55,979 nucleotides of DNA. Origin: Amanita rubescens (Eukaryota > Basidiomycota > Agaricomycetes > Agaricales > Amanitaceae). Shown here in pieces: positions 1-55,979 of the stretch (the first letter of the stretch is position 1; the number at the start of each line of letters is the position of its first letter). Location: positions 1 to 55,979 of the forward strand of contig WION01000342.1 in NCBI GenBank assembly GCA_015039365.1, written 5' to 3'. The notes beneath the pieces were generated by a model. That model was not told the origin of the DNA. It did not search any database and saw nothing but the letters and a program-made list of their open reading frames with translations. Made by a program: the position numbers and the translations under genes.

Positions 1-3000
1 TTTCTTATCATCTACGGGCAAAACAACAGAATCCGTCATGGCTTTCCAAAAGCGCCGGCGCGTCGTGCGCGGCGACTTCAAGCTTTTTTTGTAGTCGGCC
101 TCCGAGACGATGTTCCCCACAATTTGGCGTGGATGTCCCTTACCTCTCATCCAATGGTAGAGACGAACTAGAGAAGCTGCGCGTAGAGCTTGGCTTTGTC
201 TTTGTGTTCTGCGGACAGACATAATAGCAAGATATTCGTTTGTAGACGTCTTTAAAACGATAGGATCCGATGGTTCCAAATCGTGGCCACAAGCTTGAAC
301 GTAGAGAACCTGGCCCTATGGTTTCACCTGGCGCTAGGGCTACATTACCACATCCCTTTATCAAAATACACAACGAAGGAAGAAAGGATTAACTTACCGG
401 AGAATGTCGTCGACTCTGCAGAGTTTCAAGCGTAACCCTTTCTGGAAGGCTTCGAATTGACGACGTTGCCATGGTGCGTGGTGGCCAACGAGGAGTGCCG
501 TTAAGAGTGGGCGCACGATACCCTCGTGTTCATCACCCTCGCGCACACGCAGGAAAGGGTGCAGGTATCTCGGCCTGTGCAGCCCGTCGATCAGAGTATT
601 GTGAATCGGGTCACTTATAGAGAGCGTTGTATCTGGCGTCATGTTTTAGGACGAGGGCAACAAGGTCATGGGTCCTCCTTGTCAGGTAACATCGCGAGTA
701 GATGTTCAGGCAAGTAGTCTTGATACGGGCGCAAAAGGAAATCAAAGCATGAATCGTCTTGGAAGAAGGCTGCGTAAACGAGGAACGGGTTGACTGGATA
801 AGGCTCAAGCAGGAGTTGCACCATCACTAGTGCCATCAACACGCCATCTGTTTCATAATCTATATATGCGGGCGCGCGTATAAGATTGGTGGAAGGGACA
901 TATCCAATGTGCGATAGGCTCCACCTTGGAAGGGAACCCAACGGTTATCCCCTTTACGCGTAGATCAAGAGCACCTTGATGAACACTTTGTGATGGCCCA
1001 TCGCCAAGTGCGGGAATCTTATTCTTGCCTCTGAACCTGAATGAGATCATGCTCGAGCGACGTGCAATGCCACTTACATAAAAAAGGGTCGCAGTGAAGA
1101 CAACCGCTACTGTTCCGGATGTTGCATGTGATTTGCTCAGGGTCTTCGGGTTCGTATTGATACGGCGCGGTGCCTGATATCAATGACTTCACCAAATGGA
1201 CGAATGCCGGTGAGGCCAGCTCGATTGAAGGCGCGCCGAGACGGAACACCTGGTGGATCGACTGAGAACGGATATGAAGCTGCCAGACTCTGATATCGTC
1301 CAATCGTGGCAGCTGTACTTCGCCTTTATCTGCCGAGGGATCGTCAACTTCTTCATACAAGTCGAGATCATTGGCGAATCTGCCCTGTCGTTTTCAATGT
1401 CGTCCTGCAATAGCGTCGTCGCGTCTTCGCCCTCATTTCGGGTTTCTACCATTTCGATGTCGCTATCGCTGGTTTCCTCAGAAGATGTAGAATTCTCGCC
1501 TGGGCGGCGCCGCTTAGCGTTGCCGGGCTTGAGCTGTAGATATGGATTGGCAAGAGAAGCGATCATTGTGGCAACTCTTACCGTGGGCGATGAGATGCGG
1601 CGTCGACGGCCAGAAGCCTGAGTTGTTTATATCATGGGAGGACTTTCTGATTTAAAAAATCACCTACAGATGAACTAGCGCCCTCTGCTGATGGCATTCG
1701 TTGTTAATACATCCTCCATTTCTTGCAATGGGTTTCAGTTTAAGCCATTTGAAGGTATCACCACCGAGAAGGCGCCATGGCATGCAAGCGTGTTGAAGGC
1801 GATTCAGTGGTCCGTCGGGAATGGGGCCTCGAAGGTTACCACGTGTAGGGGCTAACAGATAGGTATGAATCAATTGCATGGATGATAGCGAAAGAGGACT
1901 GACCAAGCAAGAGAAAAGGAGCCTCACGTGTATTCGTTTGAACGAGAACGATCGTCGCATGTTGGCGCAAGAACTCGGTAGTGAATTCGGCAAGACCTGC
2001 TAAGCCCACTTGGAAAGCCCACTTCGACCTCTTTTGCTTGGATTTGGATTGACCCAACACGTCCCATGCGAGGCTATTGAACGTGTTGCCGTCGTCATCG
2101 TCTGGGCGCTTGAGCTGGAATTCGTTGGCGTCCAGATGCAATTTCAAGGCACGATCAATCGTCATCCATGGATTGGGCGCATTTTGACTTAATTCTACAT
2201 GAAACACCAGATTATGTCTCGACAAGTGGTCGACGACTACACCAAGCTCCCTGATGTTGAAAACAGGTTCGGGTGGCGGTTGTCCTGCGTAGGAATAATT
2301 GTTATCAAGCTAAGAAGTTTAAGTGACATGTTATCATGAAACAGGGAGAGAGGGATACGCACGACAAATGGCCATATTGCACAATTATATTGAATAATCG
2401 TGGACGCGGCAGAAGGCACTTGTGGAATAGGGACGGACACTTGGCTGCGGCTTCTGCGTGCTTTGGAGGACGATGGTTCGCTGCTGCCTCCATTCTCTGG
2501 CGATTTGCTGTGCTGACGGCCGCGGTGGCATTCGTCCATGAATGTAGTGATCGATTGCCGACATTAGCAAATGCACGCGCGGGAGGGCTACGTGCCACCT
2601 GAGCGGCGGCTTCGGTGGCATTGGGCTGAATTGGAGAAGCGGCAGCTGCAGCAGCAGAAGCTCCACTGGCGTTTGCCTCGGCTTGTGTAGAGACAAGTAT
2701 CTCGTGGAGGTCGAATGACTGGCCGCAGACACATAACGTAGGGTTATCTCCTTGATTCTAAATAAAAAATCAGACGCTAACTAATCGGATGGTAAACAGA
2801 CGAGTTACATGGGGATGATACCCTCCGCAATGGCTTGAAAGGCATCCACCTTGACCTACTGATGGTGGAGGTGGGACTATATGCATCCACCACGGATGCT
2901 GGCAAATGCAGACCTCATCGGGACTCTTAGGCATCCGCCTTAAGTTGATGCCATCATCTTCTCGAAAGACGGCCTTGGGACAGCGGCACCCCTCTCTCAG

Positions 3001-3105: not shown

Positions 3106-4859
3106 CGGATCACTTGTTTGGATAGGATGTCAGCGATTTTACGATAGGGAAGGTCGGCCGCCGACGGATGCACGTTTAAGCTCGGCTTACACGGGAATAG
3201 GGATATTCTTTTGCCAAATTTGAAATATAAATCATTGAGCAGGACGTATCATGGCGATAGAACACTACTATCTGCATCATGGCTCGGCTTTCCCGGGTAC
3301 GTGGGTATGTTGTTTTCAAATATACCTTGTTCAAGCAGAAGCGGTAGGGGCGTGACGGCCGTATGTGGAACACTTGTGTCATAATCTAAAAATAGGACGA
3401 CATGCAGCTGAGCTGTTCTGGGATATACGCGAGGAGGTGAAACAGGGGAGGGGAACGGAGGATAAGGTCCAATGAGGAACTTGACGAACATTGAAGAATT
3501 TAGGCGCGGGAAATTGATGCGCCGTCGAGGAGTCGTGACCTATTTTAACGTTACCCCATATGTCAGTCGGAGCGCGTGACATCAGGCCTTCCTCCGTTAC
3601 CAAAGCAACCTTCGCCAGAATGGTGGATTGTTAACTGTGGATATCCGTTGGTATTGAAGGTGCCGTCACGTACCGTGTGTCGTGAATGGAGTCCGGACAT
3701 TATTGCATTCGTGGTCCCGTCCCGTTCCCGAGCCGACGATCATGCCTCTATCACTGATGCATCAAGGCCGTATTTGATCCGTTTGATTGTGGCGATGACG
3801 AGTGGCGTACAACTGTTAAGAAGTTATCGTTTTTTGCGCGTGAACGCTAACTCATATTATATAGAGAATAGATTGGGATGTTGGACGCAGTATTGTGTTC
3901 ATACGGGACTACAAGATGAAGTACGGAGAAGTGAAGATATGATATATGGAATGCATTCTAAAAACAGGGCGTACTGCCGGGATATGATATGATAGTGAAT
4001 CGTGTTGTTGGCATCAGGCGAAGGGGCACGCGTTGTCCATCACTTCAGAACATCGCGAAGGATATAAAATATCAAGAAATATGTTTTCGAGAGCGAAGAA
4101 ATGACTATCACACGTCCTCCGCGCCCCTACCGCTCTGGACTCTCCTGTATTGTTCCAAGGGATCCTTCTTCCACCTACGAATGACCGAATGCAATACTTT
4201 GCTTTTCGTGAATAATGGGTTAATTGGCCGTCGGTGAACGCACCTGCAGAACAATACCCGGCAAGGCCGCTTGCCAATGTCTCAAACACTCTAAACAAAA
4301 CATTCGTCGCTTTACGTCGTCAAAATTTGATTGCGACGCTGTAGTGCCTCGCGGACGAACCATCGAACAAAACCGACCCCAACGCATTCCCCATACGTTT
4401 CATACTATCTCGAATGAAGACCGCTATCGACGGTGAAAGAGTATTTGGGATTAATAGGTCAAGGACGCACCAGGCATGGCTTGATTTGGTATGAACGCGG
4501 TAACAGGAGGTCAAACGAATGGTACGGGCAGGAGAAGAAGCTCAAAATGGTAAAAGGTCCGGGTGGGTATGCTTGGCGTTGCGAGTGCTTCACGGCGATG
4601 AGTCGTGACAAGAACGCAGCGCACCACTCGACGTGTGGGCTCGGGGTTCAGCATCTTTCTCCAGCTCTGCGCAGACAGCTTTTCCACCCTCAAGCCTTTG
4701 TCGAAATGTCACGCAACCAGTAATCCCTCGACGCACCCAGCAGCAGCAACCTGAATACCATCACTCTAGCTTCGGCCAGACCAGGTGCGACTCTCGCTAC
4801 CTCACTCGCTCTTCTCTTTGCTCATTCACCTCTAGTTTTCCTCGGTACCCAAATAGAGT
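3106..4859. other. No recognisable gene
   Basis: Only short overlapping frames are present on both strands, none with a recognisable domain or a convincing exon chain. This is the spacer between the minus-strand orphan gene and the NACHT-ankyrin relic. The last few hundred bases may be decayed upstream coding sequence of that relic, but I see no P-loop in them. Confidence 0.5.
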
Positions 4860-6420
4860 TTGCCCGTACCCTCGCCGTCCGTCATACTCGTAATCGACCG
4901 TCGTAGCCGCGACACTTACGCAACAGGTTTGCTTGCTCAACTTTTACGCAAAGTCTCTCCAGGGTTGAAGCCAGCCGTCATCAATTTACTCAAACAATGT
5001 CCAAATCCTCGATCCGTTCACGACTTCGACCTGACAGAGCTCATCTTGGAATTCGCGCGAGAGTTTGATAAGACTTCGTCGTGATTGATGCCGTAGACGA
5101 ATGTGACAATCTTTCCGAGTTGCTACCAGCTCTGACAGTTCTAGCTGTGGAAATCAACGTGCTCGCTACTGGTCGCGTCAATTCTCAAATTCGCAACGAG
5201 TTTCAGGGGCACGGAAAGGTGATAATTGGACGAGACGATATCAACCATGACGCGCGGAGGTTCGTCGAAACGGATGTGAGGCACGTCAAAACTCGGGATC
5301 CCCAGCTAGTTCGGGACATTATTGATAGGTTGATCTCCGGTGCACAAGGAACGTAAGCACGTAAGCATTATCTATCCGATTTACATCTTTTGATGGAGAT
5401 CCTGACGTTTCTCTTCAGCTTTCTATGGCCGTCGTATCACATGCGGCGATTGAGAAAGTTGCGGACAGATTACGATATACGAGAAGCTTTGGACGACTTA
5501 CCCCACGGAATGGAGGACACGTTATCTAGGGCTCTCGAAACCATTGATGCGCATCCTAATTCGGACCGCATTCGTCGAGTGCTGCGACTGGCTATATACG
5601 CAGTACAACCTCTCACGCTGTACGAATTGGCGGAAGGCATCGCGACAGGTGAAATGATCGACGTATGGGACCCAGCACGCGTCGTGACGGATCCAATATC
5701 CCTCATCGACGATTGCGCAAACCTCCTCGTCTGTGCTCCCAGCAGTACTTTTCCATATCTCCCTGACGTGGTTATTCCTTTTCACGCGTCTGTCAAAGAA
5801 TTCCTCGCGAACCCTGCCAGGATAACCCAGCCGTTCCTCAGATATGCCCTGTACCCGCAGAGTGTTGTACATTGCGATTTGGCATACGAGGAACTAGGAG
5901 CGCTGCAGCTTTACGACAAGAATGGCGTCAAGGTTGAGCTTCATCTCCTCACTCCCGGCCAACTCGCCGTCAGACTCGATCTTGCGATGTTGATCCCACA
6001 TTTTTGTACTGAAGAACTCATGGCTGAAGATAACAGAGGTTCAACACCGCTATGCGTCGCCGTGGAAAGATCTGCCTCCCTAATGCTTGTCGACAACCTT
6101 TTAAGGAGGGTGGACGTTAATCAAATCAACTGCAACAGTGAAACGGCCCTTCATATCGCTGCGTCCACCGAAGACGTTCGGAATTGGGAAGCTATCATTC
6201 ACCGGGTTTTGGTGGCTGGTGCAAATCCACACTTTCAGAACGACGAGGACAGAGTGCACTGCACCTTCTGATGAACAATCCTATGCGAGCATTGTCATGT
6301 GTATCCCTCCTGCTACGGCGCGGGGCTGATATCCATGCCCGCGATGCGTATTCTCGCACATCACTTCCGGTTCATCGACGTCCTTCAGCTGATTTTAGGA
6401 CGTGGAACTGAATCTGGACT
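4860..6420 (+). pseudogene. Decayed NACHT-ankyrin STAND NTPase (fungal NLR-like)
   Basis: The sequence reads as the middle and C-terminal part of a NACHT-ankyrin protein. A Walker-B segment VVIDAVDEC lies near 5077-5107, followed by the typical helical region (ALDDLPHGMEDTLSRALE, about 5490-5535) and ankyrin-like units (TPLCVAVERSA; ETALHIAAS; GADIHARDAYSRTSL). A clean GT..AG intron at 5353-5418 joins GAQGT to FLWPSYHMRRL. It is broken: no P-loop (GxxGxGKS/T) is found upstream, one base is missing just before the Walker B (about 5076), and the ankyrin part changes frame near 6250 and again near 6365. Intact members of this architecture are signalling NTPases often linked to non-self recognition in fungi. 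This copy is 5'-truncated and frameshifted, so very probably non-functional. Confidence 0.8.
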
Positions 6421-11151: not shown

Positions 11152-11636
11152 TGACGAAGATACGCCCAGCAGCGCAGCGTCTAAGTATTAAAGTGAATAC
11201 TTACTTAGAGTGGAGTGTAGAGTGGCGGTTACGACCTCAAACGATAACTCACTATCCTATGGATATAGGATGTGGTGGTAAGAGGAGAAGGAAGGTTCTT
11301 ATTTGTACCTACGTACAGGTAGTCTTATATACTACTAGTATCCTAATAAGTACAATGTATAGTAAATAGAGGAAGACTGTGCATGACGTATGATATGACG
11401 TCTAGCGCAGCTATGACGCGTCTACCGCAGTAATGGGATGACGCAAGCGACTATAGGATATTCCAGTATCCTATGTATGTATATGTACATGTATATATGT
11501 ATGTGGATACATATATGCATGTATGTACATCTAATCTGTATATCCTAATCTATAGGATAAGATATGATGTATTATCTTATATGAGATAAGATAAGATATA
11601 TGTTATCTTATATGATTAGATAAGATAACTTTAACA
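11152..11636 (-). repeat. Left LTR (3' LTR in element orientation), 485 bp
   Basis: It begins TGACGAAGATACGCCCAGCA and ends GATAACTTTAACA. It contains strong hairpins: ATAGGATA..TATCCTAT near 11452-11473, ATCTTAT..ATAAGAT near 11574, and a perfect 10-bp stem GTTATCTTAT/ATAAGATAAC at 11602-11629. Four TGACG motifs (11384, 11396, 11414, 11439) resemble bZIP/CREB half-sites. Their role is untested. Confidence 0.95.
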
Positions 11637-18446: not shown

Positions 18447-18932
18447 TGACGAAGATACGCCCAGCAGCGCAGCGTCTAAGTATTAAAGTGAATACTTACT
18501 TAGAGTGGAGTGTAGAGTGGCGGTTACGACCTCAAACGATAACTCACTATCCTATGGATATAGGATGTGGTGGTAAGAGGAGAAGGAAGGTTCTTATTTG
18601 TACCTACGTACAGGTAGTCTTATATACTACTAGTATCCTAATAAGTACAATGTATAGTAAATAGAGGAAGAGCTGTGCATGACGTATGATATGACGTCTA
18701 GCGCAGCTATGACGCGTCTACCGCAGTAATGGGATGACGCAAGCGACTATAGGATATTCCAGTATCCTATGTATGTATATGTACATGTATATATGTATGT
18801 GGATACATATATGCATGTATGTACATCTAATCTGTATATCCTAATCTATAGGATAAGATATGATGTATTATCTTATATGAGATAAGATAAGATATATGTT
18901 ATCTTATATGATTAGATAAGATAACTTTAACA
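18447..18932 (-). repeat. Right LTR (5' LTR in element orientation), 486 bp
   Basis: It is a direct repeat of 11152-11636 with one extra G near 18667. It has the same TG..CA ends, hairpins and TGACG motifs. Transcription of the element would start in this copy and run leftwards. Confidence 0.95.

Positions 18933-21643: not shown

Positions 21644-21694
<51 letters not shown>
21644..21694 (+). repeat. 51-nt poly(A) tail of the LINE
   Basis: This is an uninterrupted run of A that ends the LINE 3' UTR. Such a long pure tract normally marks a fairly recent target-primed insertion. The following bases, GAGGCATCGCTGACG, do not recur upstream of the LINE as far as I can see. Confidence 0.9.
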
Positions 21695-42941: not shown

Positions 42942-45028
42942 TTACATCCGCCGACGGATCCAGTTTCCTTGAGAATCTTGATATGTCGATAACGTAGGAA
43001 TAAATTCGAGTATCCACCAAAAGCACATAAAGAGTTGAATCACATCAACGATGTCGCGTAGGTACCCGTGTGAGTGGGTTTGGGGAGATCTGTTCGGGGC
43101 GACAAATGGCTGGGAAAGCGCTTTTGAAGGGCTTTCCCCAGCGTATTTCTCGAGTTCCTGATATGCTTCGCCCAACTCCTTCAACTTCATATTTCTTCGT
43201 CTCATCTCCGTCATGACGTCAAGAAAATCGAATTCTAACTCGTCCCGCAGATACTCCACATTGAACTGAATCCCTGTCTTTGCCAAGATACATTCCTTTA
43301 TCATCCAACGCAGTGGTATGAATGATAGATTGGTATTGCGTCGCGTTGAAGGAGATCCTCCGCCAACGTCTGAATGGGAACCTGAGGTATGTAAGTAGCA
43401 ATAACAGACACGTTTGCTCAAATTAAATCACCTGCAAACCAGACCTCTTTCACGTCAGTGTGGTCACGTTCTGGAGCTGTGTATTGCCACTTATCGCATT
43501 TGCTTTGCTCAACTTCCCAAGTAACAGGAAAATCGACATCCAGTTCTTGTTCATGCTCCACCGTGGCTTCACTCCACACATTAGGGCGGAACCAGGCCCT
43601 GCGTTCATCGAGGGCAAGAGCATGTCGGAAGCACTTGATACTATAATTTACCGATGTGTACGGGTGCATCTGGGGAATGATTCCCACAGAAGAAACGGTG
43701 TCCCTGTGTGCAAGGTAAACGCTCGAACAAATGATAGTAAGACGTTACCTTACCAAACACCAACAAAGTCAATAACGACAGATGGGCTGATTGCAAAAGT
43801 TGGGTTAAAGCAGACGAGCTCGAGGAGAGGGAATAAGCATACTAGAACGCAAATGTCGATTTGAACTCCCGGCCGAGCTTATAGCCTTGATAGCCAGTGG
43901 TCATATATATGTTGAAGGCAAAGTCGACGTGCTGAGGATTGTCCCTTGACAAAATCCCAACCTTGAAAAGAGGCAGACGTGTCTTTTCAGATCTGTGATA
44001 ATAGAGTTGGCCTCACCTTGTAAACCATGCCTGCTACTGCTCGGGCCGTATGGGCTGAGAATACACCGGATCAAGACATGTATAATTCCATAACAAAAAG
44101 ACATACCGCCCCGTGAAAAACCGAACAAACAGATTTTGTCTCCAGGTTGGTAATTTTGAATAAGGAATGTATAACTGAGGAGTGTCAGTTAGTAATTATT
44201 GTAGGGAAGAGACGCCATTTTACCCATCCTTGATACAATCATCAAGGTTCCAGACTAATATACCAATACCCGGCTGATATCGATAATTGGTTAGCCGAAG
44301 GAAGCTGGAACAGTTGCGGACGAACCTGATAATACACGACCTGCTCTCTGTCAAGCTTTTTGAGAGCGCGAAAGAACCGGACGATGTTCGATTCCTGATG
44401 AAAAGTCAGTAGGATCCTCTGGAAAGTTTAAATTTGCATACTCGCTGCAAGAAGATTTAGCAAGTCAGTCAAGACTCGGCGAAGGATCGACACTAACCTC
44501 CCCGAGCTTGGCCCCTGTGCCGTCGAAGCACAGTATCAGAACTCTGCCGGAATCGCGGGAAGGACTGTTCTGAGGGCCGGGATGTAAGATGTCAAATTTT
44601 GGCGGCTCTTCCAGATTTGGGGTATGATAGGAAGTGCGAAACGGACTTGCGATATTGGGCACGGACGAAACCGGCGATTTCGGATGCGTGATAGGCACGG
44701 CGTCACGGAAGGGACCGTCCTGAAGGGACTGGAGATGCAAGATGTTGAATTTCGACGACTTTTCCACATTGGGGATAGGATAGAAAATGCGAAGGGGACT
44801 TATTGGCCGCTCTTCTAATGTGGGTGTATCAGGGGGCGTGCCAGGAGGACTTGCGATATTGGATACAGACGAAACCGGCGAATTTAGATGTGATGTCGCG
44901 ATAGGTACGATGCCAGTCCCTTGCATTTTGGGACTGGAGGTGTATGAGGGAGATTTGAGAGGAGTAAATAATGAATATTTCCTACCTATAAGGGTCTGCA
45001 TCTCTCTGGAGTTTCTTATCACGGTCAT
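42942..45028 (-). CDS. DUF2235 alpha/beta hydrolase (9 exons, 539 aa)
   Basis: Exons in transcript order are 45028-44498, 44394-44326, 44273-44224, 44174-44107, 44054-44017, 43961-43843, 43786-43754, 43703-43432 and 43381-42942 (540 codons with stop). Family marks: RVLILCFDGTG (residues about 160-170), the nucleophile elbow LFGFSRGAHTARAVAGM (Ser in GFSRG, about residue 237), VVIDFVGVWDTVSSVG and VWFAGGSHSDVGGG with the late Asp and His. Bacterial relatives include phospholipase effectors; in fungi DUF2235 proteins are abundant and mostly uncharacterised. The N-terminal 150 residues are a low-complexity Ser/Pro region with two copies of a SPVSSVxNIASP unit. The first codons lie in the first copy of a 245-bp tandem repeat, so the start is uncertain. 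Confidence 0.88.
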
Positions 45029-45840
45029 TCAAGCCGCTGGCATTAAACTAGCAAAAGGAAGAGCATGAGCTTTCATATTGGCTTGCCCGAGCCACAGTTG
45101 CATACCTTATCCGACGGAACCGGTGAATTTAGACGTGATGTCGCGATAGATACGATGCCAGCCCCCTGCATTTTCGGACTGGAGGCGTAAAAATAAGATT
45201 TAAGAGGAATGAATAATGAATATTTCCTACCTGTAAGGGTCTACATCTCTCTGGAGTTTCTTATCTCGGTCATTCAAGCCGCTGGCATTAAACTAGCAAA
45301 AGGAAGTGCATGAGTTTTCATATTGGTTCGTCCGAGTCACAGTTGCATACCTTATCCGACGAAACCGGCGAATTTAGACGTGATGTCGCGATAGATACAA
45401 TGCCAGCCCCTTGCGCTTTCGGACTGGAGGTGTAAAAGGAAGATTCAAGAGGAGTGAATAATGAATATTTCCTACCTGTAAGGGTCTACATCTCTCTGGA
45501 GTTTCTTATCTCGGTCATTCAAGCCGCTGGCATTAAACTAGCAAAAGGAAGTGCATGAGTTTTCATATTGGCTTGCCCGAGCCACAGTTGCATACCTTAT
45601 CCGACGAAACCGGCGAATTTAGACGTGATGTCGCGATAGATACGATGCCAGCCCCCTGCATTTTCGGACTGGAGGCGGAAAAAAAAGATTTAAGAGGAAT
45701 GAATAATGAATATTTCCTACCTGTAAGGGTCTACATCTCTCTGGAGTTTCTTATCTCGGTCATTCAAGCCGCTGGCATTAAACTAGCAAAAGGAAGTGCA
45801 TGAGTTTTCATATTGGCTCGTCTGAGTCACAGTTGCATAC
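44873..45840 (-). repeat. 245-bp tandem repeat, about four copies, over the 5' end of the DUF2235 gene
   Basis: The motif GAATTTAG starts at 44880, 45125, 45370 and 45615, exactly 245 bp apart, and the rest of the unit is conserved (GGAGTTTCTTATC, CATTCAAGCCGCTGGCATTA, AAACTAGCAAAAGGAAG). The copy next to the gene contains its start codon and first codons. In the other copies the equivalent minus-strand frame starts MTEIRNSREM and then hits TAG. As 245 is not a multiple of 3, the repeat is not a protein repeat; it multiplies a promoter/5'-exon module. Confidence 0.88.
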
Positions 45841-46015
45841 CTTATCCGCTAATGTAGGTGAAATATTTTTCTGAATAGTGTCCGTAGATTTGTGCTCAAT
45901 AGTATGTGTAGCTGATTCGGATTTGGATGTAAATGCCATTGGCGCCTTCTTGTAACAAATTGTAAGCCGTGCCAATATTCCTCGGATGGATGTTAATTTA
46001 TCGCATCTTACCTGC

Positions 46016-53507: not shown

Positions 53508-55979
53508 ATGGAATCAGGCACAGATGAGACACATGTTAAACTGCTCAGGGAACAATATCTATGCCCATACTTTCGTATACTTGTCATTGGGAGGGCTATT
53601 GCAGGCAAGACAACCATCCTTGAGAAGGTTTGTGGTGTAGCAAAGGGGACAAAACCCATCATATATGACAAGGATGGTAAGTCAGTCTGAGCTTGCTTGT
53701 GCTTCTTTTGATTGTTGAGTTTGTTGCAGGTAATCAGCTTGAACAGTCTGAAATACATTTGATGCCATCACTTGAGGTGAGCCAGATCATAATGGTGTAT
53801 GGATGTATCCATTCACATGCAATGATGACAGAAACGCTTGCATAATATTGACCATCAAATTACATACCCTGGAAGTAACTTTATCTTCCATGACTCTCAG
53901 GGTTTTGAACCTGGTTCAACTGAGGAATTGGAGATTGCTTGGAAGTTCATTGAAAGGAAGTATGCAGAAACTGAGCTGAAGAATCAGCTACATGCAATTT
54001 GGTATCTTGCTTTATCCCTTTACATTACTGACTGACCAAGCCACCTGTAGGTACTGTATACCCATGGACAACTCTCATCCTATTCAACCTGCAGAACTTG
54101 AATTCTTCAACAAAGGGACAGGCAGAGGTAGGTCCTAATGAATTCATATCTCATCTTGTTGGTTTTGGAGGGATTGTTTTCCCTTAACTATTGTTACCTC
54201 CTTTCCATTGATCAACTTGTCACAAAATCTACTAGTACTGACTAGTAAATATTCATTTTACAGTTCCTTTAGTGACTATATTCACCAAATTTGATACTCA
54301 AATAGCCTGTGAATTTGACAAGTTGACTGATGCAAAGGATGAAGATGAGTGGGAGAGGGCCAGGGAAATTGCTGAAAGCACTTTTCAGACAGTTTATCTC
54401 CCTAAAGTTTTGAATGCTAAATATCCTCCTATAGCATATGTGAGATTAGAAGGTGAGAATAGTGAACATTTCTTCCTTGAAAATAAAATAAAAATGCTGC
54501 TTTATAGACATGGATTTGCCAGAGAAGGATTGCCCTGAATTGACTCAGAAAACTGCTGATGCAATTGATACAAGCATACATCAACTGTTTGTTCTAACGC
54601 AGATGAATAATCTGGACTGTTCAGTTAAATCTGCACTTCGGTGAGGGTCACATTCAAAATGTCATTTACTAACATTGACATTGTTTAGACATGTTCTGAA
54701 ACATAAACATTGGACATGGGATGATGTCATCATCATAGTTCTTTCAAAATTTCCACATTCCTGGGTATGCATTTTTGTCAAACTACACATCAGCATAGGA
54801 AATTCAAATGTCAATAGGTGGACAGGGAGGTAGGTGGCATTCATATGGAATGATAAATATCTGCAAAAAAGTTCATTAGGAGGTAAGTAACATTCCAATA
54901 CCATCAGATGAAAACAAGATTAGTCATGCTTCAGATGGCTAATAAACAACTGAGTGAAACACAGGTTAGTTGTCACCATATTCTTGGTGGCAGGATCTAA
55001 TGTTATTGATATCAGTGGGTAAGTACATAACATTGAGCTAGGATAAATCTTATATATTGTCCCATGACAACAGTTTGTGAGTAATGCTTCCTTTTGTGAT
55101 CAGCAGTTTTGTCCCATAATCTACAGGAAGTGAGTAACTCTTTTTTTTTGGTGAATTATCCCATGGCACATCATATGATCAATAGCAAGTGAGTTAATCT
55201 ATCACTCCAAGCAGACTTGTCAATCCAGTCTCTTGTGGACAGGGAGTGAGCAATACAACATTGCCTCACACCACATCTGACCTGCTTAAAGAAAGTAAGC
55301 AACATTGATGTTTGTGCAGTTTATCAGATATAACTTGAGGAACAATAGAAAGTCAGTGACATACTTTATCTGAAAGAGAGTCCCAGCAAACTTCATTGAA
55401 TCAACAACAGGAAGTAAGTGACATTTCCTTTCTGTCTGCTGGTAAACTGTCCCAAAACAACAGACAGTAAATATTTCTCCTTTTCAAAATCTCTTCACAA
55501 GCTACAAGCTATTGCAAAACAAATAGGACGTATGTGATACTTGTGTGAGATATGAATTCATCATATGAAATGCTATTGCAAAAGAGGGTCAGTGGCATTG
55601 TATTCTTTTCTCCCAACTCATTATACCAATTCAATTCTAAAAGGAAGTGAGTGATGCTGGCCACTCTGCTGCAAGACAATTTGGACACATTCTTTTGTTC
55701 TACAGACTGTGAGCGATATTGCAAGTTTTGTGAAAAGTAATGAAATCACATCTCCAACAGTCTGTGAGTGACATTGCACATTTTGTGAAATGCAGTCTCA
55801 TCACATCATTTCCTATAACAAACAGCTAGTGAGTGATGTTGCACATTTTTTTGAAAGGCAGTCTCACCACATCTTTTCCTGTGACCAATAGCCAGTGAGT
55901 AGCATTGCACATTTTGTGGAAGGCAGTCTGATCACATCTTTTCCTATTACAGCTTGTGAGTAGCAGTGGATATTTTGTG
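53508..55979 (+). CDS. P-loop GTPase-like protein with single-codon microexons; runs off window
   Basis: Ordinary exons are 53508-53676, 53730-53776, 53832-54001, 54051-54127, 54264-54452, 54508-54640 and 54689-54764. They keep one frame for 287 codons, ending KFPHSW. The G domain shows G1 ILVIGRAIAGKTTIL (P-loop about residues 28-35), G3-like FHDSQGFEPG and G4-like FTKFD. It belongs to the G-domain/P-loop NTPase proteins that are expanded in many Agaricomycetes; function is unknown. From 54765 the gene continues in phase 0 through exons 54818-54829 (VDRE), 54880-54882 (E), 54935-54964 (MANKQLSETQ), 55016-55018 (W) and sixteen further 3-nt exons. No stop has appeared at the right edge. A strange 3' structure made of homologous introns supports tandem duplication. 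The 5' start may lie further upstream. Confidence 0.82.
54765..55979 (+). repeat. Tandem array of short introns separated by 3-nt exons
   Basis: Introns: 54765-54817, 54830-54879, 54883-54934, 54965-55015, 55019-55073, 55077-55126, 55130-55185, 55189-55242, 55246-55291, 55295-55348, 55352-55410, 55414-55463, 55467-55526, 55530-55584, 55588-55643, 55647-55705, 55709-55760, 55764-55825, 55829-55891, 55895-55952, then one cut by the edge. Donors are GTRAGT-like (GTGAGT, GTAAGT, GTCAGT, GTATGT), acceptors CAG, TAG or AAG. From 55016 the spacers are TGG TTT GAA CAA GGA AAA AAA GAA ACA GAC AGG GAA ACT TCT CTA CCA CTT, each exactly 3 nt and none a stop. The last four introns are clearly homologous (shared ATTGCACATTTTGTG, CATC.TTTCCT). 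Confidence 0.85.

Follow-up and report, generated by a model that had tools for sequence, protein, structure and literature searches.

Can a segment of protein be written in the genome one codon per exon? The question is raised by a gene at the end of the Amanita rubescens contig WION01000342.1 (assembly GCA_015039365.1), whose full length of 55,979 nucleotides (nt) is the window analysed here (contig C271 of a 75.7-Mb genome). Seven ordinary exons encoding a G domain (861 nt, 287 codons in a single frame, positions 53508-54764 of the plus strand) are followed by exons of 12, 3 and 30 nt and then by 17 exons of exactly 3 nt (55016-55955), all in phase 0 and separated by introns of 46-63 nt; the contig end falls inside this array. 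The 17 one-codon exons joined read W F E Q G K K E T D R E T S L P L, and the predicted product of the joined codons of the window array is SETQWFEQGKKETDRET. A first-pass annotation had described this arrangement, and its exon counts, spacing, phase and joined residues agree with ours in every countable detail checked. The array is coding and spliced, because its joined codons recur in order in intron-free relatives and no stop occurs among 644 one-codon spacers; it very probably gives rise to a continuous protein segment, likely the variable recognition surface of an immune-type GTPase.

The window gene belongs to a large family. The context AG-NNN-GTRAGTGACATTGC has 741 + 730 matches in the genome against none for the reversed control, exon-wise tblastn searches with the G domain gave 355 matches, and the C-terminal exon motif is present at 83 places within three mismatches, a count that includes duplicates such as C61/C363 and misses other subfamilies. 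Of ten database models of the family examined, one skips ahead to the C-terminal exon and the others stop at the G domain or shortly beyond it (nine models). In the stretches examined, the pattern AG-N{k}-GTRWGT, with k from 0 to 12, is enriched at k = 3 alone. Parsing of seven arrays with a flat length prior of 0-60 nt assigned exactly 3 nt to 337 of 368 internal exons, the remaining 31 comprising five of zero length, ten measuring 2-12 nt and 16 measuring 18-60 nt. A second measurement needs no donor model: where exact copies of a 62-nt intron flank a spacer no longer than 12 nt, at four loci, that spacer has 3 nt in 78 of 82 cases. These two counts bear out the earlier statement that the spacing does not result from chance. 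Chains of k = 3 units at 14 loci, which include the close paralogs C13b, C228 and C254, contain 644 spacers of 3 nt, and no other length between 0 and 16 nt occurs there more than 13 times; C271, C170 and C105 were dropped from this set as copies of C61, C1a and C35, respectively, and C12 has no chain of at least eight.

The codons held by these spacers behave as coding sequence. With a strict donor and shifted readings removed, none of the 644 is a stop codon, as against a mean of 36.0 and a minimum of 21 in 2000 column shuffles. Genome-wide, the strict context CAG-NNN-GTRAGTGACATTGC contains TRA once, ARA, CRA or GRA 747 times and TWT 121 times, the number of TRA expected from the first-base T frequency of the 644 codons (~0.14) being about 120. 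Some 13 codons at the start of the array and a few at its end are conserved, and its middle is hypervariable; in the window's subfamily both the opening codons (W F E Q G K... D E I Y and close variants) and the closing codons (L K I or L K N) are common to paralogs. Leaving M and W aside, 603 of the 634 codons of the 14 loci end in A or T, a bias that suggests synonymous selection from splicing. Two sets of stop calls were discarded: 19 apparent stops of an early scan, each 4 nt after another call and representing the same donor read twice, and 25 of the 26 calls of a looser scan, which are shifted readings of the same donor. The scarcity of stops bears directly on the view that the arrays are relics of a decayed family no longer making protein. 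Frame breaks at the locus L030, a 1.1-kb insertion ahead of the C170 array and apparently foreign sequence near the array end of C8 speak for such decay. We consider it very improbable, with one strict-context stop in the genome where ~120 were expected, a window gene that is open through its 287 G-domain codons and a C61 copy that continues into intact C-terminal exons and a kinase.

Evidence for splicing comes from relatives. A protein search revealed JGI proteins, encoded on contigs of 1-2 kb, that cross the G domain without introns and enter the tail; to judge by this lack of introns they derive from complementary DNA (cDNA) and are likely transcripts of close relatives. Seven such transcript-like proteins carry the tail, and the genome was searched with three of them (P0003, P0037 and P0055). 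A profile search retrieved no full-length transcript-like proteins beyond those of the first search (best 120 of 1273 matches compared with best 120 of 535). The G domains of P0003 and P0037 run on into VDRAVTNEQLSETKWFEKGKKESDREIEYDG... and GRDEMANKQLSEAQWFEHGKKDTDKQIVYDG..., respectively, which correspond to the window's 12-, 30- and 3-nt exons joined, and the tail of P0019 is likewise contiguous with its G domain. P0019 proceeds through array-type codons to VCDIAQF..., which resembles a translated array intron, and its end is likely a retained array intron. The most complete comparison involves P0055 and L030 (C1:29501-36500), which share two exons at 86 and 90% identity. Fifty consecutive tail residues of P0055 lie opposite 49 separate 3-nt exons of L030, with 41 of 49 aligned residues identical and in order; the single gap is located at an odd 4-nt L030 unit, and the tail alignment scores 228 against a best of 46 among 1000 shuffled orders. 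Taking a microexon to be an exon of less than ~30 nt that is flanked by functional splice sites and present in mature RNA, the 3-nt exons belong to this class through the one-to-one match of the intron-free P0055, likely a relative's transcript, to the 49 L030 exons. The one-codon exons are real, in phase 0 and coding.

The first-pass annotation had also considered an intron-only tail never spliced in this way, which the near absence of stops and the joined codons of the intron-free relatives refute. A related proposal is that of a non-coding minisatellite, the array being a long intron or 3' region, built from copies of an intron-like unit, with decoy splice sites whose 3-nt spacing came from repeat copying. 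The array does consist of units of 56-65 nt repeated in tandem, in part nearly identical, and in the A. rubescens model P0086 the C-terminal exon follows almost directly on the G domain, as if an array had been spliced over, but the intron-free sequences carry the joined codons contiguously, stops are nearly absent, the first and last codons are conserved, and codons differ where introns do not, the opposite of a neutral repeat; such a minisatellite is therefore extremely improbable. The earlier suggestion that each gene acts as a combinatorial splicing generator, with subsets of one-codon exons skipped to give very many isoforms, has in its favour that skipping any phase-0 unit preserves the frame and that it could bypass the rare 2- or 4-nt units of C13b and C254. 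It was not borne out, since the whole array (49 of 49 codons) is included in order in the one full comparison, and codon strings are unchanged in two pairs with diverged introns, as expected if the whole string matters; we regard it as unlikely. Protein diversity is demonstrable between genomic gene copies and not between splice forms.

That diversity is concentrated in the codons. In all six pairs formed by C228, C254, C257 and C13b, codon bases are 32-43% different at aligned positions, compared with 0.8-1.0% for array introns and 0.8-1.5% for upstream sequence; the alignments contain 238-1244 gap columns, from unequal array lengths. Alignment of C228 with C254 pairs 32 variable codons, of which 28 are unlike; 11 of these differ at all three bases and none of the changes is synonymous. 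One identical intron sequence makes up 20/33, 23/34, 19/29 and 35/40 of the variable-part introns of C228, C254, C257 and C13b, respectively, and the unit-to-unit register is ambiguous because of this identity. The 62-nt intron has 352 exact copies genome-wide, haplotype duplicates included. Codon make-up differs between the four ~1%-diverged loci (78 spacers, chi2 of 101, reached in 0 of 5000 permutations), and shuffling of one common set of units is therefore insufficient. The codons that precede 35 copies of one 62-nt intron in C13b are of five kinds, and those that precede 13 copies of one 53-nt intron in C8 are of six. The same pattern is seen in the proteins P0035 and P0047, which are identical at 288 of 303 residues before the tail, 86 of 91 in the C-terminal part and 26 of 48 in the tail, where there are 21 gap columns. 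The pair C35/C105, whose arrays contain no repeated intron, differs at 20 of 4181 intron bases but at 0 of 174 codon bases, and none of the seven differences between C1a and C170 lies in a codon. These comparisons are few; they fit a rule whereby identical introns go with fluid codons and diverged introns with frozen codons. The C170 copy (L029, C170:51301-61300), whose array is 99.87% identical to that of C1a, carries its 1.1-kb insertion at ~3331-4463, between the G-domain exons and the array.

Fluid arrays may change through recombination of their units, through ectopic exchange with other arrays or through a process directed at the spacer bases. Codon-targeted mutagenesis, in which the three spacer bases would be rewritten and the introns left untouched, could explain the different codons between identical introns of C13b and C8, the 11 of 28 changed codons of C228/C254 that differ at all three bases with none synonymous, and the unlike codon make-up of the four loci; units with a rarer repeated intron in common share the preceding codon in 29% of 21 pairs, compared with 11% of all pairs. 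It appears rather unlikely, however, given that codons are unchanged in the near-identical pairs C35/C105 and C1a/C170, that no enzyme or template is in hand, and that recombination among identical-intron units, combined with selection and exchange between arrays, gives much of the same picture.

The remainder of the window gene is found on C61 and C363, which are identical to each other across the 10 kb compared; in the 2481 nt that they have in common with the window, they depart from it at a single base within a T run. The occurrence of practically identical copies in C271, C61 and C363 reflects either haplotype redundancy or a very recent duplication. The C61 array (L027) comprises 46 one-codon exons by reading, ~29 units of which lie beyond the window end. 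It is followed by a 51-nt exon (HALFSMFG...), a 25-nt exon and an exon IIIAKLSFWINKPF..., and then by a predicted phase-1 intron toward a kinase domain; the joined exons 3' of the array match PK_Tyr_Ser-Thr (Pfam, 4.7e-42). The kinase would thus belong to the C61 GTPase gene, a linkage we infer from splice sites, the frame being traced in full only up to ...MAALLAALHK. In contrast to C61, the frame of C1a and C13a, read by eye, reaches a stop shortly after the SFWINKPF exon. A conserved TTT before GTAAAT near the 3' end had been a candidate one-codon exon and was rejected, as comparison with P0055 identifies it as the end of a 25-nt exon. In four of five arrays inspected, a zero-length exon (AG directly followed by GTRAGT) separates the last I codon from the single codon after it, while the fifth, C1c (L023, minus strand), has AG and then GTACTG at this place; zero-length exons of this kind are candidate ratchet (recursive splice) sites. 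GC donors flank some one-codon exons (TGG/GCAAGT, GGG/GCAAGT), at L030 1750 and 2819 and at ~6711 on the minus strand of L023.

The motif GRxxAGKTT is nearly invariant in the family and contains the P-loop signature GxxxxGKT. The AlphaFold2 model of P0055 has a mean predicted local distance difference test (pLDDT) score of 80.6, with a G domain mostly above 80 and a helical C-terminal domain mostly of high confidence. The array corresponds to residues 327-376, of which 327-359 are nearly all below 50 and 360-376 form part of a helix. The top whole-length fold matches of this model are immunity-related GTPases (IRGs), slightly ahead of EngB and septin G domains. By motif and G-domain fold, the product is probably a P-loop GTPase, for which GTP binding is predicted. 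Pfam matches for P0055, P0035, P0067 and the joined kinase include MMR_HSR1, Arf and others, all below cut-off, and none to the IRG sequence family up to E = 1. Because the variable segment sits in an IRG-like protein that at one locus is apparently in frame with a kinase, it may function in recognition and signalling.

Several observations weigh against a coding, spliced array that serves recognition. Off-length spacers exist, four of the 82 between exact intron copies measuring 2 nt (two) or 4 nt (two). The 644 spacers come from regions chosen as k = 3 chains, and in these regions spacings of 17-30 nt reach 61, which we read as fixed AGs within repeated introns. One stop does occur in the strict genome-wide context, and one of the 26 stop calls of the looser scan is not explained by a donor being read twice with a shift. 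L030, on which the fullest comparison depends, has one 4-nt unit (~2990-3000) and frame breaks in its C-terminal exon (~5020-5220), and is either a decayed copy or mis-assembled. P0003, P0037 and P0055 reach at most 90% exon identity to the genome and none is from A. rubescens itself, so that the splicing evidence consists of intron-free sequences of relatives. A tail-only protein search returned none of 23 candidates at E <= 10, and a search of the genome for a contiguous copy of a 31-residue joined tail gave no candidate, the query being too short to be informative. Likeness to IRGs is at 9-13% identity, with EngB and septin G domains scoring nearly as high, and the recognition role is inferred.

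The coordinates of the window gene, together with the zero-length exon sites, are listed in Table 1. Elsewhere in the window, the same short tandem repeat (29-nt period, equal score) is found at 11552-11627 and 18848-18923, ~7.3 kb apart, and the intervening region includes a GC-poor stretch (35% at 12-16 kb); the pair are possibly terminal repeats of an element. A 245-bp tandem repeat in four copies with 92% matches lies at 44868-45848 and a run of 51 A at 21644-21694.

Table 1. Exons of the window gene (positions in the window) and zero-length exon sites (positions in the named loci).
Feature	Position	Strand	Basis
Seven G-domain exons	53508-53676, 53730-53776, 53832-54001, 54051-54127, 54264-54452, 54508-54640, 54689-54764	+	Exon parse; family tblastn matches; Amanita homologues
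12-nt exon VDRE	54818..54829	+	Exon parse; VDR matches P0003
One-codon exon E	54880..54882	+	Exon parse
30-nt exon MANKQLSETQ	54935..54964	+	Read from sequence with anchor; contiguous in cDNA-like P0037 (MANKQLSEAQ) and P0003 (VTNEQLSETK)
One-codon exon W (TGG)	55016..55018	+	Exon parse
One-codon exon F (TTT)	55074..55076	+	Exon parse
One-codon exon E (GAA)	55127..55129	+	Exon parse
One-codon exon Q (CAA)	55186..55188	+	Exon parse
One-codon exon G (GGA)	55243..55245	+	Exon parse
One-codon exon K (AAA)	55292..55294	+	Exon parse
One-codon exon K (AAA), donor GTCAGT	55349..55351	+	Exon parse
One-codon exon E (GAA)	55411..55413	+	Exon parse
One-codon exon T (ACA)	55464..55466	+	Exon parse
One-codon exon D (GAC)	55527..55529	+	Exon parse
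One-codon exon R (AGG)	55585..55587	+	Exon parse
One-codon exon E (GAA)	55644..55646	+	Exon parse
One-codon exon T (ACT)	55706..55708	+	Exon parse
One-codon exon S (TCT); variable part begins about here	55761..55763	+	Exon parse
One-codon exon L (CTA)	55826..55828	+	Exon parse
One-codon exon P (CCA)	55892..55894	+	Exon parse
One-codon exon L (CTT); 24 nt before contig end	55953..55955	+	Exon parse; array carries on in C61 (L027)
Zero-length exon sites	L027 ~4303; L022 ~8441; L016 ~8103; L030 ~4702		

The first-pass annotation held that no long run of one-codon exons was known to have been described in fungi, and we found no description of such arrays in the literature searched, which was mostly open-access; we know of no gene with a protein segment written one codon per exon. 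RPS24 reportedly contains consecutive microexons. Schistosome micro-exon genes and aphid bicycle genes have exons of mostly 6-36 nt and encode secreted proteins, which in the schistosome type carry a signal peptide. They resemble the Amanita genes in combining many tiny symmetric exons with variable proteins, whereas the Amanita exons, at 3 nt, fall below the schistosome-type size range (~6-36 nt) and stand behind a G domain with which the product starts. Introner elements are near-identical introns spread over many unrelated genes. Like them, the Amanita genome contains many identical copies of one short intron, but at the examined loci the 62-nt copies all lie within arrays (most of the 352 are outside those loci). 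Single ultra-small exons include a 1-nt exon in Arabidopsis APC11 and 3-nt exons, as reported in PMC4674806, and a 1-nt exon in Fusarium CYP621A, as reported in PMC12940212. These share with the Amanita array the accurate splicing of exons far below the usual minimum; they number one to few per gene, whereas in Amanita dozens stand in a row, one codon each, at many loci and with a hypervariable middle. The HNWD non-self recognition genes of Podospora are described as containing a repeat array that undergoes concerted evolution and rapid rearrangement (PMC2873952). Both systems have a repeat array in a signalling NTPase and a hypervariable protein segment; the HNWD repeat is a WD40 unit of coding sequence, in contrast to an Amanita repeat that is 95% intron and contributes one residue. 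The NACHT or NB-ARC domain and WD40, ANK or TPR repeats that characterise NLR/STAND proteins gave no Pfam match at E <= 1 in the four proteins scanned. The closest systems also include the IRGs Irga6/IIGP1, Irgb10, Irgb6 and GM4951. Outside the close relatives, the distant P0118 (JGI, 458 aa) has a tail, SREGELHSLLYHLEYHHREEEEYHHHHHYLEYEEYL, rich in Y, H, E and L, which might be array-encoded and place an array beyond this clade.

A mechanism can be proposed for the spliced array. Splicing would proceed by ordinary intron definition of the 46-65-nt introns; since introns this short could each be recognised individually, a 3-nt exon would need no signals of its own. The unit of one intron plus one codon would serve as the recombination module, its gain, loss or swap changing residues; since each repeat is ~95% intron and encodes one residue, duplication, loss and exchange of units keep the frame. 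Where intron copies are identical the codon string would be rewritten fast, and where they have diverged it would be frozen. The resulting segment would join the G domain to the helical C-terminal domain and, in at least one locus, a kinase would follow in frame; this layout suggests recognition of non-self or of a partner. More tentatively, and with the odds slightly against it in our estimation, the family may constitute a splicing-built diversity generator, in which a recognition segment of 30 to 80 residues has a separate exon for every residue and the introns serve as material for exchange. Recombination between units in runs of identical introns, or codon-directed rewriting, would alter the string and equip every new gene copy with a new in-frame segment, and diverged introns would lock it.

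If true, this would be a fungal, codon-by-codon equivalent of V(D)J joining, lamprey receptor cassettes or diversity-generating retroelements. Dozens of successive 3-nt exons, with no space for exon signals, strain the limits of the spliceosome, and the intron would become the repeat unit of a frame-proof diversification cassette, in arrays that gene annotation overlooks. The way in which the spliceosome puts many tiny exons in order would thereby become testable, as would the source of hypervariability in fungal immune-type proteins, be it recombination of repeats or directed mutation.

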